Notes under the pieces: generated by a model
Database searches by the model: none
Told to the model about the DNA's origin: nothing
Seen by the model: the letters and a program-made list of their open reading frames with translations, nothing else
NCBI GenBank assembly: GCA_016929065.1
Contig: JAFGJO010000009.1
Coordinates: 1 to 64,000, forward strand
DNA length: 64,000 nt
Direction of reading: 5' to 3'
Source: Spirochaetales bacterium
GTDB lineage: Bacteria > Spirochaetota > Spirochaetia > SZUA-6 > RPPD01
Shown: positions 18,434-26,258 of the stretch, in pieces
How positions within the stretch are numbered: the first letter of the stretch is position 1
Layout of the letters: every line of letters starts with the position of its first letter
Position numbers and translations under genes: made by a program

Positions 18434-19111
18434 CTAGGGTTTATAGGTAATATAACTGGTTTCCATTCCGTTGATTTCCTTGATCCAGGCGAGGAATTTC
18501 TGTGCTTCGGTTTTGGTTGCATAGGGACCAATTAATACGGTGTAGAATTGACTGCCTTTGACTGTTTCCGAGAAAATGCGGCCGCCGAGCCCGTTTTCTA
18601 CAAGTATTTCATTGTTCGCATCGGCATTGCTTTTATGTCTGAACGCACCGGTTTGTATATAATATGAATTTTTCTGTGCGGTAACCGGCGGGGTTGTGGG
18701 GGCTGTTTTTTTTACTGTTTGCGGAGTGGTGACGGTTTTTTTCATGGGTTCGGTGGTTTTTGTTTCATAGCGTACCGGCTCTGTTTTTGCTGCATCTTCC
18801 TTTCCTGACGATTCGATTATCGGCTTTGACTGTTCCTGTTCACCGAGCATTCTGGTGTCTTTTTTATAATATCCGTTGGAAGTTGTATTGTCCGGCTCCT
18901 GCATTCCCGGCAATGGAACATTTTTCATTGTATGTTCGAATGGATCGCCTGGGTTTGTATATGTATTTCTTATATCATCCACCGGCAGTTCTGCAGAAGC
19001 GGTGGTCACCGCTCCTCCGGGAGTTTTCGCGTTCAATAGCCATATTCCGCCCAGAATAACGACAAGAAATAAAAGTGAAATAGATAAAATAACCCACAAT
19101 ATTTTGTTCAT
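18434..19111 (-). CDS. SPOR-domain membrane protein
   Basis: A 225-residue protein: an N-terminal membrane helix (ILWVILSISLLFLVVILGGIWLL), a long Pro/Thr/Lys-rich linker, and a C-terminal SPOR domain at about 148-225 (YYIQTGAFRHKSNADANNEILVENG...FYTVLIGPYATKTEAQKFL). SPOR domains bind denuded glycan strands of peptidoglycan at division sites, so this may be a division or cell-wall protein. It is the last gene of the minus-strand group fliS-flgN-polA-coaE, 13 bases after coaE. Confidence 0.85.
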   Translation of the reverse strand: MNKILWVILSISLLFLVVILGGIWLLNAKTPGGAVTTASAELPVDDIRNTYTNPGDPFEHTMKNVPLPGMQEPDNTTSNGYYKKDTRMLGEQEQSKPIIESSGKEDAAKTEPVRYETKTTEPMKKTVTTPQTVKKTAPTTPPVTAQKNSYYIQTGAFRHKSNADANNEILVENGLGGRIFSETVKGSQFYTVLIGPYATKTEAQKFLAWIKEINGMETSYITYKP

Positions 19112-19124
19112 AAACCAACACCTT

Positions 19125-19706
19125 TTAAAAGTCCGAAGACAGATTTTTCATTATATTCTCTAACTGTACCGCACAAGCAATTTCATCAAAGCGGTTGTCT
19201 ACGTTATATATATCGACATTCCCCGTGGTTTTATTAGAGAGTATTTTCAATTGCGATAAAAACCGCTTTATTATTTCACAGAAATCCAGCCTGTCCCTCT
19301 TTTTTGCACGGAATATTCGCTGGATCAGCGGTGACCGGACGATGATAACTGCATCGCAGAGGGAATCCAGTTTCATGGGAAATAATAACGCGGCATTGAT
19401 TACGGCATTTTTATAAAGAAGGATCTGCTGTTTTATTAATTCAGTCATTTCCGGATGGAGGAGCCTTTCAAGTGCCTGCCGTTTTTTTTTATCCGCGAAG
19501 ACAATCCGTCCCAGCTTCCGGCGGTTTATTGAGCCGTCCGCATCGGTAATTTTTTGGCCAAAAGAGGCAATAACTTCCCGGCTTTTTTGTGAGAGGACTT
19601 CATGGCCAATTGTATCGACATCAATCTCGGTAAAATTCCGTGCTGCAATCAGGCGGGTGATAATGTTTTTGCCGGAACAATATTTTCCTGTTACGCCGAT
19701 GACCAT
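19125..19706 (-). CDS. coaE: Dephospho-CoA kinase
   Basis: A 193-residue enzyme of the last step of coenzyme A synthesis, phosphorylating dephospho-CoA with ATP. It shows a modified P-loop (GVTGKYCSGKN instead of the usual TGGIGSGKS), the DVDTIGHEVL substrate motif, RRKLGRIVFADKKKRQALERLLHPEM, and the lid-like RAKKRDRL. The sequence is diverged, as in Treponema. It follows polA by 21 bases and precedes the SPOR gene by 13, in one operon. Confidence 0.85.
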   Translation of the reverse strand: MVIGVTGKYCSGKNIITRLIAARNFTEIDVDTIGHEVLSQKSREVIASFGQKITDADGSINRRKLGRIVFADKKKRQALERLLHPEMTELIKQQILLYKNAVINAALLFPMKLDSLCDAVIIVRSPLIQRIFRAKKRDRLDFCEIIKRFLSQLKILSNKTTGNVDIYNVDNRFDEIACAVQLENIMKNLSSDF

Positions 19707-19727: not shown

Positions 19728-22460
19728 CTAATGGATGCTTCCCCAGCTTTCTCCGGCCTCAATATTGACCCGGAGCGGGACAGCCAGGTGTACTGCTTTT
19801 TCCATGATGTTTTTTACCGCTGTCATGACCGTCTTTGTTTCTTTTTTTGGGGATTCGAGGATGAGTTCGTCATGAACCTGTAAAAGAAGTTTGCTTGCAT
19901 AATCGTGACTGGTCAAATGATTATGGATTTTTATCATGGCAAGCTTGACGATATCAGCGGCACTTCCCTGAATTGTTGTATTAAAGGCAATCCGTTCACC
20001 GCTGTTGCGCTCTGTCCTGTTCGCACTGTTAATGGTACGAACTGTCCGTTTTCTGCCCATAAGGGTCGTTACGAATCCTTTTTTTACTGCATCTGCGATG
20101 ACAATATCGCGGAATTTCTGAACACCGGTGTACCGCAGAAAATATTCATCGATAAAACTGTCTGCTTCGGTTCTGCTTATCTTGAAATCGCGGGCAAGGC
20201 GGAACGCACTCATGCCGTAGACAACGCCAAAGTTGACGGTTTTTCCCATCTGGCGTTCATTCGGCTGCACATCATCAATATCCTTGTGAAAGATAATTGA
20301 GGCGGTGAGTGCATGAACATCAGTCCCTTCTAAAAATGCTTTGGTCAGCAATGGGTCTTTTGACAGATGAGCAAGCACGACAAGTTCAATCTGGGAGTAA
20401 TCCGCGCTGATAAACAGTGAATCTTCTCCCGGAACGAATGCCGCGCGGATTCGTCTGCCTTCGTCGGCCCGTACGGGTATATTTTGCAGATTGGGATTGT
20501 TGCTGGAAAGCCGGCCGGTTGCGGTTCCTGTCTGCATATACTGGGTATGAATTTTGCCGGTGTCGGGATTGATGATTTTCGGCAATGTATCAAGATAGGT
20601 GTTTTTCAGTTTTGACAGGGAGCGGTGCTCGACGATCATGGGAGGAATCTCATCATCACATGTAAGGAGGAGCTGTTCAAGGACCTGGTTGTCAGTTGAA
20701 AAGCCGGTTTTTGTTTTCTTTACCGGCGGGAGATTCCGTTCAGTAAAGAGTACTTCCTGCAGCTGTTTGGGAGAATTGATATTGAACTCATGGCCGGCGG
20801 CCTTGTAAATATCTTCCTCAATTTCCTTTAACCGCGTTTCAAAAACCGAACCCTGTTCCTTGAGTTTTTCGGGGAGCACCCGGATTCCCGCCAATTCCAT
20901 TTCCGCAAGAATAGCCAGAACCGGCATTTCGATCTCGTGAAATATGGTATCAAGACCCTCTTTCTCCAGGAGCGGGAGGAAATGGCGATACAGCTGAAAC
21001 GTAATATCAGCATCTTCTGCAGCATAGTCTGTTGCCTGCTGAAGGTCTGCGTGTGACAGGTTGAACAGGCTTCCTTTTGCAATGATATCCGAATATTTTA
21101 TGGTCTTGAATGAAAGATATTTTTCTGCAAGGACATCCATGCTGAATGACCGCTGGCCTTCGCTGTCCAGAAGCCATGCGGCAATCATGGTATCAAACAT
21201 TTTGTTTTTTATGACCGCACCTGCCCGCTTCATCACCTTGTAGTCGTATTTGATATTTTGTCCAATCAACAGTATCTCCGGGTCCTGAAACACGGGCGCC
21301 AGGATTGAAAGGACGGTTTCCAGCGTGAGGCAGTTTATGCCTTCAGACTGAATGGGGATGTACCAGGCTTTGTTTTTATCCAGTGCGACAGAAATCCCGA
21401 TTATTTCGGCTTCCATTTCATGGATGCTGTCTGTTTCAGTATCAAAGGCAAAATACTTCCGGTCCTGGATAGTTTTAACTATTGCTGCCAACTCCTGCTG
21501 GTCTGTAATTGCCTGATAGGTCCCCTCTGCGGTCGAGGGGAGAGGAGCGCTGGATTCTTCCACTTCAGCGATTTCAGGAGTAGAGGGGGCCTTGTTTGAT
21601 TTGAAAGTCTGAACAATTGATTTCATCCCCTGTTTCTCAAAAAGCGGCAATGCCGCAGAAACGTCGAGCCGCTCGATGGAGAATGAATCGAGTGCTGCGG
21701 GCAGTGGTACCTCGCAGGCAAGCGTAACAAGTTCCCGGCTCAAAAATGCATTTTCTTTTCCTGCGGCCAGTTTTGTCTGCGTGGCAGCCTTGATCGAATC
21801 GATGTGTACATAAATGTTTTCAAGGGTTCCGTGTTCCTCAAGCAGTTTTACCGCTGTTTTTGGTCCGATGCCGGTAACACCGGGAATATTGTCTGATTGA
21901 TCACCGGTCAGGGCCAGATAATCGATCATCTGATGCGGATGAACACCGATTTTCTCGAACACCTTCGCGCTGTCCCAGATTTCATATCCCGACTGTTTGG
22001 AAGAAGACCGCATGACGAGGACATTGGTATTTACCAGCTGCAGGACATCCTTGTCACGGGAAACAATTCTGCATCCAATCCCTGCTTTTGCACCCTCCAC
22101 TGCCAGAGCAGCGATACAGTCATCTGCCTCGAATCCCTCAACCCGCAGAAATGGCATGTGCATGGCAGAAAGAATTTCTTCGATCACACCGATCTGCGCA
22201 TGCAGTTCATCAGGTGTTTTATCACGGTGAGCTTTGTAGAGAGGATATTTTTCATGCCGGAAAGTTTTAGTTTTGGAATCCAGAACGATGACACAATCTG
22301 AGGGATTATATTCACGCAAAAATTCAAACAGGGTCCTGAAAAAGCCGAATACTGCCTGGGAATTGTTCCCTTCAGGATTATAAAGAGGCCTGTTGATAAA
22401 TGCGAAATAAGATTGATAGATGACACCGTATCCATCGATGACATGCAGTGTTTTTGTCAT
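19728..22460 (-). CDS. polA: DNA polymerase I
   Basis: A 910-residue repair and Okazaki-fragment polymerase. The 5'-nuclease domain (1-290) has GYGVIYQSYFAFINRP and EGFEADDCIAALA plus the helix-hairpin-helix TGIGPKTAVKLLEEHG. The 3'-5' exonuclease (about 330-510) keeps the metal ligands in FAFDTETDSI, IGQNIKYDY and YAAEDADITF, so proofreading seems active, unlike in several relatives. The polymerase (about 520-910) has SADYSQIELVVLAHLS, RQMGKTVNFGVVYGMSAF and LLLQVHDELILE. It overlaps the stop of the flgN gene by 4 bases. Confidence 0.97.
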   Translation of the reverse strand: MTKTLHVIDGYGVIYQSYFAFINRPLYNPEGNNSQAVFGFFRTLFEFLREYNPSDCVIVLDSKTKTFRHEKYPLYKAHRDKTPDELHAQIGVIEEILSAMHMPFLRVEGFEADDCIAALAVEGAKAGIGCRIVSRDKDVLQLVNTNVLVMRSSSKQSGYEIWDSAKVFEKIGVHPHQMIDYLALTGDQSDNIPGVTGIGPKTAVKLLEEHGTLENIYVHIDSIKAATQTKLAAGKENAFLSRELVTLACEVPLPAALDSFSIERLDVSAALPLFEKQGMKSIVQTFKSNKAPSTPEIAEVEESSAPLPSTAEGTYQAITDQQELAAIVKTIQDRKYFAFDTETDSIHEMEAEIIGISVALDKNKAWYIPIQSEGINCLTLETVLSILAPVFQDPEILLIGQNIKYDYKVMKRAGAVIKNKMFDTMIAAWLLDSEGQRSFSMDVLAEKYLSFKTIKYSDIIAKGSLFNLSHADLQQATDYAAEDADITFQLYRHFLPLLEKEGLDTIFHEIEMPVLAILAEMELAGIRVLPEKLKEQGSVFETRLKEIEEDIYKAAGHEFNINSPKQLQEVLFTERNLPPVKKTKTGFSTDNQVLEQLLLTCDDEIPPMIVEHRSLSKLKNTYLDTLPKIINPDTGKIHTQYMQTGTATGRLSSNNPNLQNIPVRADEGRRIRAAFVPGEDSLFISADYSQIELVVLAHLSKDPLLTKAFLEGTDVHALTASIIFHKDIDDVQPNERQMGKTVNFGVVYGMSAFRLARDFKISRTEADSFIDEYFLRYTGVQKFRDIVIADAVKKGFVTTLMGRKRTVRTINSANRTERNSGERIAFNTTIQGSAADIVKLAMIKIHNHLTSHDYASKLLLQVHDELILESPKKETKTVMTAVKNIMEKAVHLAVPLRVNIEAGESWGSIH

Positions 22461-22894
22461 GAGCTGATATCAATAAACTGCGGATCGTCATTTGTCGGGG
22501 ACAAATATCCGCCCTTTGCCTTTATTTTTTTTTGAACTTCCGCCATTTTTATTTTTAAATTCTGCATCCGTTCCTTTAAAAGCTGTCGGTTTTGTTTGTT
22601 TATGTCAAGTGCCTTTTCGAGCAGAGCGGTGATTTCTCCTTCAAAGGCAAGCAATTCTGAATCCTCATTTGCATCGCTGTTCATATTTGCGAACTGCTGT
22701 ATTGTCCTGTGGCTGCCTGAAATTTTATCAGTGAATACACGTTCGAGCGAGGTATAGTATTCTATTTTTTCCTGATCACCTGATTCTATTGCTTCTGCAG
22801 CCTGCTGGAGCAGATGAATATAGTCTTCGATATTGTTTTTCTGCTGATGCAGCAAATGCTGATACTCTTTTTTAATTGCCAGTTCTTGGCTCAT
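22457..22894 (-). CDS. FlgN-like flagellar export chaperone
   Basis: A 145-residue, almost wholly helical protein (KKEYQHLLHQQKNNIEDYIHLLQQAAEAIESGDQEKIEYYTSLE) with the length and charge of FlgN-type chaperones, which hold hook-filament junction proteins before export. The assignment rests on its place between fliS and polA and on its helical pattern, not on a sharp motif. It begins with ATG at 22894 and overlaps polA by ATGA. Confidence 0.55.
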   Translation of the reverse strand: MSQELAIKKEYQHLLHQQKNNIEDYIHLLQQAAEAIESGDQEKIEYYTSLERVFTDKISGSHRTIQQFANMNSDANEDSELLAFEGEITALLEKALDINKQNRQLLKERMQNLKIKMAEVQKKIKAKGGYLSPTNDDPQFIDISS

Positions 22895-22926: not shown

Positions 22927-23355
22927 CTATCCTGCAATATTAATACTCGGCGAGGCGGAATTGCCTGTATCTGTCTGTGTTTTTGCCGCTGCTTCTGCCC
23001 ACGCATTTCTGAGTTCACTCAGGTGTTTTTTTATTTCGGAGAGGGTTTTTTCATTTTTTTCAATATTTGCCTCGACAAGACGTTTATTCATATATACGTA
23101 CAGACTAAACAGATTTTTGGCGATTTGCTCGCCTTTTTCGAAATCCAGAGAAACCATAAGCTCGGTAATGATATCCTGCACTTTAATTATTGAATTACTT
23201 GCTTTTTCGTATCCCGAGTGTTTTTTCCCAATTTCTTCGATTGCCAGATTCATATGTTTTATGGCGCCGTCATAAAGCATAATGATCAGCTTTCCGGGGG
23301 TAGCTGTTTTTATCTGTATTTCTTTATATGAATTTGTCGGATTCTGCGTGTTCAC
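22927..23355 (-). CDS. fliS: Flagellin export chaperone FliS
   Basis: A 142-residue chaperone that binds the C terminus of flagellin and prevents early polymerisation. The family start YKEIQIKTATPGKLIIMLYDGAIKHMNLA is clear, and the C-terminal helices (LYVYMNKRLVEANIEKNEKTLSEIKKHLSELRNAW) fit. The start codon is GTG at 23355 with ggaggc upstream. A sigma-28-like promoter lies about 45 bases upstream. It heads the group fliS-flgN-polA-coaE-SPOR. Confidence 0.92.
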   Translation of the reverse strand: MNTQNPTNSYKEIQIKTATPGKLIIMLYDGAIKHMNLAIEEIGKKHSGYEKASNSIIKVQDIITELMVSLDFEKGEQIAKNLFSLYVYMNKRLVEANIEKNEKTLSEIKKHLSELRNAWAEAAAKTQTDTGNSASPSINIAG

Positions 23356-23399: not shown

Positions 23400-23427
23400 G
23401 TATCGGCTGAATATTCCATCAACTTGA
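23400..23427 (-). promoter_or_regulatory. Sigma-28 (FliA) type promoter of fliS
   Basis: On the minus strand, tcaagttg (23420-23427, 6 of 8 to TAAAGTTT), a 12-bp spacer, and gccgatac (23400-23407, 7 of 8 to GCCGATAA). The spacer is one base longer than the usual 11. Placement just upstream of fliS fits flagellar late-gene control. Confidence 0.6.
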
Positions 23428-23511: not shown

Positions 23512-25800
23512 TTATTTTGCGTTTTCCATCAGTGTGGATACCGGCACAATCTCGTACCCCTTGTTTATCAGTGCATTAATCAGGATATCAAGATACTGAA
23601 ACAGGTAATCTTCGCGGTCGTTTACTTCTACTCCGAGTTCAACCGGAATAATAGATCCCGGCTGTTTCAAAGAAATAATGCGTTCAATCAGTTTTGAAGC
23701 ATTCATATAGCTTTTTGAACCGATTGCTGCCTCTGACCGGGAAACCCAGTCGAGTGAATCAACATCCCTTCCGACATAAGAATAATTCATTTCACGGGAT
23801 GCGTCAATGATCGTGGAATTCACGATATAATACGGGGCATGCCAAATCAGGGCAAGTTCTTTGCCGGTAGCCTGAAAATAGTCATCCTCATTACGTGCCA
23901 GGCCCTTTTTAATAAAATCCGTGTCTATATTTAACCGTGCATCGGTCATATTGAAGTTTGCATAAAACAGAGAGCCAACCTCATGTCCAGAATCCGCAAT
24001 TTCCTTTACCGCGTCCGGATACCGACGGATAAACTCTCCATTCACGAAAAAAGTACACCGTATGTTGTAATCATTCAGTATATTCAATACTGTGGATAAA
24101 CCCTCGGTTGATTCAATCGCGTTGAACACCAGTGCCACTTCGCGTTGGCGGATTCGTGAACCGTGATTGAAGAGGGTAAAATCAATCTCGCCCTCCTGGA
24201 CCGGATAATTCTCATATTGATAGTCCTGATGAGGAAACAGGGGATAGGTATTAAGGCCTTTCAGGTCACGGATCATTACGATATTTTTGTATTTCCCCTG
24301 GTCAATATCCTGTAAGAAAGCACGATACTTGTCGGACGTTGTTTTTAATTCCTGCACTGCAAAATTTCCCTGCTGTTTCCATGCATTTTCTGTCTGCGGG
24401 GTTGCATATGCTTTGCCGTCAATTTGTGTAAGAATTGTGGTGTTGTCGGCAGCAAATCCTGATTTCTCTCCCGGCTGGGAAACAGTGAGAAGGGAGGTCG
24501 TTTTGCTGCTGATAGTGTACAATTCAACGGTTTTTTGACCGGCAATAATAATTTCATTAGATGATTTCCAGATCGCATGAACCGGATTGACGCCGGGAAC
24601 CGATATTTCTTTTTTCCATGAACTGTATTGGTAAATATCAATGCCTGTGCTGCGGACAAGCAATGCCTTTTGACCGTCATCCGACAATACGATATCTTTA
24701 ACTTCCTGGTCCTGTGTCTGTGTAAATCCCTGGATTTCTTGATCTTTCGGGACCTGAATGCGGAAAACATTGTATGTTTTTTTGCCTTTTGCGATTCCTT
24801 CTGCAAGAAGGGTGAGCTTGTCATCCAAAGACCATACGACCTTTTTTAATGTAGTATTTCGGGGAAGGTACAGAAAGGGAAGTGAATGTACCGCGTCTTC
24901 TGAAATAAAATCCTGAGGTTTTAATTGAAGCAGCATGATGTTCTGCTGGGATTTTTTGAACAGTATTTTTGTCCCGTCCGGAGAAATCCAGAACTGATCA
25001 ATGTTTGATTCAAAACGAAACGGAATTTTACCGGCAATCACACCCAGTTTGACAAATCCGGAATACAGGGCACGGGTAAACAATTCGGTGCTTTGAATTT
25101 TATAAACAAGCGAATCCGAAACAAGAAACAGGTTTCCGAACATGTCCCATTGGATATTCGACAATAGGCCGTCTGCAAAATTTCTGTAGGTTTCTGCCAT
25201 AACCCGGTTTTTTTCAAGCTGATCTATCGAGTAATAATAGAGCTTTGAATCCTTGCTGTAGATAAGGTTTTTTGAGTTCGGCGCCCAGCTCACCGGCTGA
25301 TTCTGCAATGACAGGGGAATCTTGTCGGAAACAATAAATTCCTTTTGCTGTGTCATGTCATAAATCATTAACTTTCCGAATGCCTCGGAGACCGGTTTGT
25401 GATACACAAGATACTTTCCATTCGGAGATGTTTTTACCGGGACGATTTTGCCCTTTTCAACCTCATAACCGTGAATAAATGAAGGAAATAATGAGACCGG
25501 GGTAAATTTTGTCAGAGATGCATCACTCCGGAAAACCCCAAACCTGTTTTGGATCTGCAGTTCATTTGTTCCGCTCAGGTAAAGAATTTCTGTCGGGAAG
25601 AAGGTCAATTGCGATATTTTTTTTGTGGCAATATCGGAAACGAACAGGGTTTTATACGTTCCATATCCGGGAGATTCGGACAGGGAGGTGAAAAGTAGAT
25701 TCTGGTCATTGTTCATACCGAGTTCGGTAAACTCAATTTGAGCTCCTGCCTGAATAGAAAAAATTAAAAGCATTATTGTCACAATCAATTGGAAACGCAT
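23512..25800 (-). CDS. Secreted beta-propeller protein with degenerate polysaccharide-deacetylase domain
   Basis: A 762-residue protein with a signal peptide (RFQLIVTIMLLIFSIQAGA). Residues about 25-540 are TolB/WD40-like propeller repeats (FVSDIATKKISQLTFFPTE, PVSWAPNSKNLIYSKDSKLYY, IDQFWISPDGTKILFKKS). Residues about 552-762 have a NodB deacetylase fold: VALVFNAIESTEGLSTVLNILNDYNIRCTFFVNGEFIRRYPDAVKEIADSGHEVGS. The catalytic Asp-Asp of motif 1 reads Asn-Ala and the metal-binding H-x3-H is missing (LFYANFNM), so it is probably not an active deacetylase; a glycan-binding role is possible. The gene starts ATG at 25800. It stands alone on the minus strand. Confidence 0.75.
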   Translation of the reverse strand: MRFQLIVTIMLLIFSIQAGAQIEFTELGMNNDQNLLFTSLSESPGYGTYKTLFVSDIATKKISQLTFFPTEILYLSGTNELQIQNRFGVFRSDASLTKFTPVSLFPSFIHGYEVEKGKIVPVKTSPNGKYLVYHKPVSEAFGKLMIYDMTQQKEFIVSDKIPLSLQNQPVSWAPNSKNLIYSKDSKLYYYSIDQLEKNRVMAETYRNFADGLLSNIQWDMFGNLFLVSDSLVYKIQSTELFTRALYSGFVKLGVIAGKIPFRFESNIDQFWISPDGTKILFKKSQQNIMLLQLKPQDFISEDAVHSLPFLYLPRNTTLKKVVWSLDDKLTLLAEGIAKGKKTYNVFRIQVPKDQEIQGFTQTQDQEVKDIVLSDDGQKALLVRSTGIDIYQYSSWKKEISVPGVNPVHAIWKSSNEIIIAGQKTVELYTISSKTTSLLTVSQPGEKSGFAADNTTILTQIDGKAYATPQTENAWKQQGNFAVQELKTTSDKYRAFLQDIDQGKYKNIVMIRDLKGLNTYPLFPHQDYQYENYPVQEGEIDFTLFNHGSRIRQREVALVFNAIESTEGLSTVLNILNDYNIRCTFFVNGEFIRRYPDAVKEIADSGHEVGSLFYANFNMTDARLNIDTDFIKKGLARNEDDYFQATGKELALIWHAPYYIVNSTIIDASREMNYSYVGRDVDSLDWVSRSEAAIGSKSYMNASKLIERIISLKQPGSIIPVELGVEVNDREDYLFQYLDILINALINKGYEIVPVSTLMENAK

Positions 25801-25918: not shown

Positions 25919-26152
25919 TTATTTCAGCTGAAGAAAAAAATTGATTTCTGCCTCAATTTTTTCCAGACGTTTTTCAAGTTTATTCAGCTGACGAAGCTGC
26001 CATCGGGATTGTACTTTACCCAGGTCTGCAAAAGACTTGTCAATGATATCACTCATTTCGCGGTTTTGGTGCCGGTTACCGCAGAATGGGCAGAATCTGA
26101 ATTCACAGTTGAGAACATTACCGCATTGTTTACAAAAGGTCACGGTTTTCAT
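25919..26152 (-). CDS. Zinc-ribbon protein with coiled-coil tail
   Basis: A 77-residue protein with two C-x2-C pairs (TFCKQCGNVL and RFCPFCGNRH), forming a zinc ribbon, and a helical tail LRQLNKLEKRLEKIEAEINFFL, probably a coiled coil. Function unknown. No ribosome binding site is seen before the ATG; instead a perfect 20-bp palindrome lies at 26162-26181, which may control it. Confidence 0.65.
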   Translation of the reverse strand: MKTVTFCKQCGNVLNCEFRFCPFCGNRHQNREMSDIIDKSFADLGKVQSRWQLRQLNKLEKRLEKIEAEINFFLQLK

Positions 26153-26161
26153 ACTAGAAAA

Positions 26162-26181
26162 GTATATATCCGGATATATAC
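26162..26181. promoter_or_regulatory. Perfect 20-bp palindrome before the zinc-ribbon gene
   Basis: gtatatatcc followed by ggatatatac, no spacer. It ends 9 bases before the ATG at 26152. It may be an operator or an RNA hairpin that hides the start; the alternative is an A/T-rich chance palindrome. Confidence 0.45.
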
Positions 26182-26202
26182 AATTTCAAATTTATCGCAG
26201 GT

Positions 26203-26236
26203 AAAAAAAAGACTGCCCGAAATATGTCGGGCAGTC
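26203..26236 (-). terminator. Rho-independent terminator of enolase
   Basis: Perfect 10-bp stem (26211-26220 with 26227-26236), 6-nt loop, then a run of eight T on the minus strand (26203-26210). Confidence 0.92.
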
Positions 26237-26258
26237 CATCAATTGTTTTACAACCGGT

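Follow-up and report, generated by a model that had tools for sequence, protein, structure and literature searches.

The explanation that we favor, and judge reasonably probable, is that the conserved duty of a predicted sigma-28 promoter in this spirochaete DNA would be the expression of fliS, and that a FliT-like chaperone gene, polA, coaE and a SPOR-domain gene would form, behind that promoter, an old spirochaete operon. DNA polymerase I would probably be produced through translational coupling, from transcripts that start upstream: these could come from the sigma-28 promoter and, by read-through of the gene for a polysaccharide deacetylase-domain protein (PDA), from a sigma-70-like promoter lying about 2.8 kb ahead of fliS. 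The sigma-28 promoter would add to the expression of polA and coaE and is unlikely to be its sole source. The motif, its conservation, the gene order, the overlap at the polA start, the missing Shine-Dalgarno (SD) match and the lack of a clear promoter before polA are features of the sequence itself.

The window is a stretch of 64,000 nucleotides from a Spirochaetales bacterium, and the features considered here lie on its - strand (Table 1). An earlier note on this DNA described the run from fliS through polA, coaE and the SPOR gene as tight, and this is borne out by gaps of 32 nt (fliS to chaperone gene), -4 nt (to polA), 21 nt (to coaE) and 13 nt (to the SPOR gene). The same-strand run begins further upstream than fliS, with a zinc-ribbon-like ORF and then PDA.

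Table 1. Genes and predicted signals around fliS and polA, in the order of the - strand.
Feature	Position	Strand	Evidence or remark
Strong terminator	26210..26237	-	after enolase gene (27554-26259), upstream of run
Sigma-70-like promoter (predicted), TTGAAA-17-TATACT	26161..26189	-	score 12.5, 99.994 percentile of - strand positions
Small zinc-ribbon-like ORF	25919..26152	-	weak match below cut-off; upstream of PDA
PDA, C-terminal polysaccharide deacetylase domain	23512..25800	-	PF01522, residues 551-676; upstream of fliS
Sigma-28-type promoter (predicted)	23400..23427	-	motif; kept before fliS in relatives
fliS, flagellin export chaperone	22927..23355	-	PF02561, 135.4 bits (cut-off 26.7)
Small export-chaperone-like gene (FliT-like by position)	22457..22894	-	PF05130 below cut-off
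ATGA overlap, chaperone stop/polA start	22457..22460	-	no SD of at least 4 nt before polA
polA, DNA polymerase I	19728..22460	-	PF00476, PF02739, PF01367, PF01612 over cut-off
coaE, dephospho-CoA kinase	19125..19706	-	PF01121, 102.9 bits, over cut-off
SPOR-domain protein	18434..19111	-	PF05036, 46.7 bits, over cut-off

The gene between fliS and polA had been called flgN, which it probably is not. FlgN was the only family that it matched in a Pfam scan at E 0.001, with 23.6 bits against a cut-off of 30.5, and its place after fliS suggests FliT, by analogy with the fliDST order. A FliT-like identity is more likely than FlgN because another FlgN-like gene in the same genome (G000:C23:3402, locus L282; 26 bits, also below the cut-off) precedes flgK- and flgL-like ORFs. 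In most of the loci that we read, the chaperone protein ends in a C-terminal tail of the (V/I)DI type.

The arrangement is not peculiar to this genome. FliS is present in 192 of 248 genomes of the class, from which we used 80 fliS loci, hand-picked from the stronger matches and the whole order. In 54 of these (40 genera, 23 families), which we call linked, polA lies on the same strand at most 650 nt behind fliS; in eight it is 650-2600 nt off, 13 show no polA over a distance of 3 kb or more, and in five polA or the stretch is cut. Among the linked loci, coaE accompanies the pair in 48, the SPOR gene in 44 and PDA in 50. The same order recurs in many named relatives, mainly Spirochaetales and Spirochaetaceae MAGs; in a Leptospiraceae MAG, at locus L260, polA was not matched within 6 kb of fliS. 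Even in genomes without a FliS match, coaE still stands behind polA in 17 of the 19 loci found among the matches listed (L151-L166, L181-L183), a set that leaves 36 of the 56 FliS-less genomes outside and is not purely non-flagellated, as G011, G056 and five genomes of f16 g27 have FliA. FliA over the cut-off with no FliS match at E 0.001 was seen in G011, G056, G142 (family f2) and genomes of f16 g27 such as G013, G039 and G058. The run from fliS to the SPOR gene is thus a predicted operon that is old and widespread among spirochaetes. A literature search, mostly outside subscription journals, found no paper about a link between fliS and polA.

How polA itself might be read is suggested by its start. 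In the window the polA start codon shares an ATGA with the chaperone stop codon, and the SD match before it extends over 3 nt only. Because the polA start overlaps the chaperone stop, polA is probably translationally coupled. The overlap, with the frame open over 270 nt, was found in 34 of 52 linked loci from 14 families (36 with the frame open over 90 nt); three of the 34 (L086, L090 and L093) are doubtful by eye, so that 31 is the safe number. Loci with no clear start codon were dropped from these and the following counts (L077 and L089 among the 54 linked loci, L155 among the 19 without FliS). An SD of at least 4 nt precedes only 3 of the 34 overlapped polA genes; it is found at 76 of 80 fliS starts, at 16 of 18 polA genes in FliS-less genomes and at 7 of 22 split polA genes, those located apart from fliS. 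Both this measure and the promoter scores given below are built on E. coli frequencies, applied here to spirochaete DNA.

We considered whether polA might instead have an internal promoter of its own, of a kind or strength that our scan missed, in which case the sigma-28 transcript would carry little weight. The earlier note proposed looking for such a promoter within the chaperone gene, and in the window the search lends it little support: on the - strand within that gene there is no sigma-70-type site with 9/12 matches, and the best candidate of the weight matrix, TTGACA-17-CAGCTT at 22608-22580, scores 8.2. The matrix also picks out TTAATA-17-TAAACT at the end of fliS. Compared with polA coding sequence, the 80 nt preceding polA in the linked relatives have no sigma-70 excess (p 0.27), and the wider windows have a slight one (120 nt, p 0.069; 200 nt, z 0.50 versus 0.00 inside polA). 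This slight excess and the TTGACA candidate speak for an internal promoter, as do the 16-18 linked loci that lack the overlap, where a promoter before polA is often present (mean z 1.37 in the 80-nt scan, 6/18 above 1.5). In contrast, the overlapped loci, to which the window belongs, are at background (mean z 0.12, 4/34 above 1.5; inside polA 0.30, 10/106), and their missing SD does not fit a separate transcript of either kind, leadered or leaderless. An internal promoter therefore strikes us as doubtful, and polA in the window seems to possess neither a clear promoter nor a clear ribosome-binding site of its own.

The split polA genes present a different picture in the same 80-nt scan, with a mean z of 2.01 (14/22 above 1.5; genomes without FliS, 0.76, 4/18). 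The difference between split and overlapped loci has p 4.2e-6 by locus and p 0.0046 with one value per family, the latter mattering more because the loci share ancestry. Among the split loci, 15 of 22 have a TANNNT box 11-14 nt ahead of the ATG, most commonly at 12 nt; so do 1 of 34 overlapped loci, 5 of 18 linked loci without overlap and 2 of 18 loci without FliS. Split genes in which such a -10-like box sits some 12 nt ahead of the ATG include L099, L100, L112, L138, L142, L167 and L169, as well as L170, L172, L175, L176, L178, L179 and L184. Because the box sits at this distance from the ATG, a leaderless sigma-70-type transcript of polA is likely in the split loci. Leaderless mRNAs are reported to be common in Leptospira (PMC5243855), and the -10 box of the split loci would likewise fit a start at or near the ATG; unlike the Leptospira cases described there, ours belong to another class, concern the polA of relatives and not that of the window, and are predicted from sequence.

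Transcripts reaching fliS and polA may also begin well upstream. The sigma-70-like site at 26189-26161 precedes the zinc-ribbon-like ORF and PDA, and from 26161 to 22401 the - strand has no strong terminator; the interval 26260-22401 contains a single strong one, upstream of the site, and two weak terminator-like sites (24662-24642 and 23391-23379) lie on the way. Read-through from this site into the fliS-polA run is possible and, like FliA binding, transcript extent, coupling and all other transcription discussed here, is something that we infer. Because this promoter may read through, sigma-28 control of polA and coaE is probably not exclusive. The 200 nt before PDA in 30 named relatives carry little sigma-70 signal (mean z 0.29). 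None of 31 gaps between PDA and fliS contains a terminator, a weak test because shuffled sequences likewise give only 0.5%.

A separate conserved element, TTTNNTGAA-N15-TGCCGANNAT, stands before PDA in relatives (for example L208, L212, L217, L225, L227 and L285-L304). Exact matches occur in 25 of the 248 class genomes, compared with 4 for the backward control; 19 of these 25 share contig and strand with fliS and precede it by 2.3-2.5 kb. The element resembles a sigma-28 box with a different -35 part and seems nearly unique in each genome. In the window, 25840-25800 contains TGCCGAAAAT, and the -35 part is absent.

These upstream signals bear on the idea that polA and coaE transcripts come mainly or solely from the sigma-28 promoter, so that control by FliA and FlgM would reach DNA repair and coenzyme A synthesis. 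Such an arrangement would fit the lack of a clear promoter in the stretch from the sigma-28 site to polA, as well as the pre-PDA element of relatives, whose -10-like box is TGCCGA and not of the sigma-70 type. Against it stand the sigma-70-like site at 26189-26161 and the persistence of the linkage in genomes that we presume to be Borrelia (family f24; this name, like Treponema for family f29, was assigned by us on the basis of size, FliA and gene order). In six such genomes (0.9-1.2 Mb) polA follows close behind fliS, and the three that we read closely have a small ORF between the two, with an ATGA overlap with polA; in the same three a CheY-like ORF, recognized by eye, overlaps fliS. FliA was matched at E 1e-50 in 171 of 248 genomes, none of them from f24, and Borrelia is known to lack sigma-28 (PMC11607428). 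Sigma-28 as the cause of the linkage was accordingly rejected: it does not hold the genes together, because presumed Borrelia without FliA keep fliS, the chaperone gene and polA in order, overlap included. Sole flagellar control would also be risky, because coaE is expected to be essential. We thus regard the main-or-only role as unlikely. Of the claim that sigma-28 drives fliS and, through it, polA and coaE, a likely link stands, given the tight run and the lack of a clear internal promoter; sigma-28 as the only driver is unlikely.

A bolder version, which we consider improbable, holds that in linked spirochaetes polA and coaE are chiefly under the flagellar checkpoint, and that lineages that left this arrangement acquired a leaderless sigma-70 promoter for polA. 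If it were true, FliA freed by FlgM would drive polA and coaE through fliS and the coupled start, and completion of the flagellar base would raise repair and coenzyme A capacity. The comparison with Treponema proposed in the earlier note gave a mixed answer: in f29, taken as Treponema, polA is away from fliS in all four fliS loci (L108, L116, L133 and L136, loci taken around fliS), and the two are close together in the polA locus L171 and in loci of named Treponema sp. MAGs, e.g. L224, L249, L266 and L270.

We return to the favored explanation, in which the conserved duty of the sigma-28 promoter would be fliS. The site comprises a -35 box TCAAG (23427-23423), 15 nt and a -10 box GCCGATAC (23407-23400, - strand), followed by an SD, GGGAGG (23369-23364), and the GTG start of fliS at 23355. 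The sigma-28 consensus has a TAAA-like -35 box and a -10 box GCCGATAA at the right spacing, and the site agrees with it in both boxes and in spacing. It is the sole match to TMAAG-N15-GYCGATA in the window with no mismatch; with up to two mismatches there are 26 matches, and 15.1 in shuffles. TMAAG-N15-GCCGATA has two exact matches in the 3.49 Mb genome (69 contigs), the fliS site among them, and 50 with up to one mismatch (29 for the backward control). Because simple arithmetic with equal base frequencies predicts about 0.8 exact matches per genome, the letters alone are not beyond chance; what goes beyond chance is the place and conservation of the motif. The genome encodes one FliA over the cut-off (TIGR02479, 286.2 bits versus 189.6) and has five Flagellin_N matches. 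Comparable scores are reached by sites ahead of the C23 FlgN-like gene (C23:3277, 11.1) and in the ORF before fliD (C65:62964, 12.1); no site above 10.5 was found upstream of the flagellin genes, the best, at 10.0, preceding the first of them.

Across the class, 43 of the 80 loci have a sigma-28 motif in the 160 nt preceding fliS, against 2.4% of shuffles (first-order Markov samples), by a score and threshold set by hand after the window and two relatives were known; leaving out the two loci known beforehand gives 41/78. The other 37 loci fall below the threshold. Control windows exceed it in 0/62 cases before polA, in 1/62 in fliS, and in 5/62, 0/59 and 0/59 in three windows inside polA. The 43 motif-bearing loci span 35 of 63 genera and 21 of 32 families, the spacing being N15 in 34, N14 in seven and N16 in two, and in an alignment of 38 sequences the columns immediately ahead of the -35 box, which the score does not use, follow an A/T pattern. 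The motif is present in 28 of the 54 linked loci and in 9 of the 13 with no polA within at least 3 kb. It thus tracks fliS, not polA, and since fliS often retains it where polA has left, this too argues against sigma-28 as what holds the genes together. Because the genome has FliA and the motif recurs in relatives, the site at 23427-23400 very probably serves fliS as a sigma-28 promoter, as the earlier note had proposed. That the motif arose by chance, with fliS transcribed from elsewhere, is highly improbable and was rejected: two exact matches in a genome expected to hold about 0.8 would allow it, but strand and distance are right ahead of a flagellar gene, the spacing is identical in both family members, and 43/80 loci versus 2.4% of shuffles is an enrichment across the class.

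We also considered a tandem arrangement in which a sigma-70 box accompanies the sigma-28 box, because TTGAAA-16-TAGATT in two family members and TTGATA about 43 nt upstream in the window were noticed by eye; it was dropped because the class alignment shows nothing constant at that place. In G042 (L111 and L180; 94% complete) no FliA was found at E 1e-50, yet a sigma-28-like box stands before fliS; polA has moved away in this genome, and coaE and the SPOR gene are still behind fliS.

That polA and a coenzyme A gene occur in a predicted flagellar chaperone operon across some 23 families suggests one of two things: a durable connection between flagellum building and housekeeping, or genes locked in by translational coupling. 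Comparing linked with split species would offer a natural experiment on the breaking of such a lock, in which the split polA carries a promoter positioned to give a leaderless transcript. Mutants of fliA, fliS or the chaperone gene may, in linked species, affect polA and coaE by polarity.

The closest known counterpart is found in Treponema denticola, where fliDST are late flagellar genes under sigma-28 (FliA, SigD). A mapped sigma-28 promoter of this species has TTAA and CCGATAA (PMC9481697). The window site is like the fliDST and flaB2 promoters in its -35 TNAA, its spacing of about 15-16 nt and its -10 GYCGATA. As in T. denticola, the site lies before a late flagellar gene in a genome with FliA. 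In contrast to fliDST, the predicted operon in the window runs into polA and coaE, and fliD lies elsewhere, on C65. Housekeeping genes can become trapped in flagellar and other operons through translational coupling, and the ATGA overlap, the missing SD and the short gaps of the window run are of this kind; unlike such trapped genes, the spirochaete run has been kept over about 23 families.
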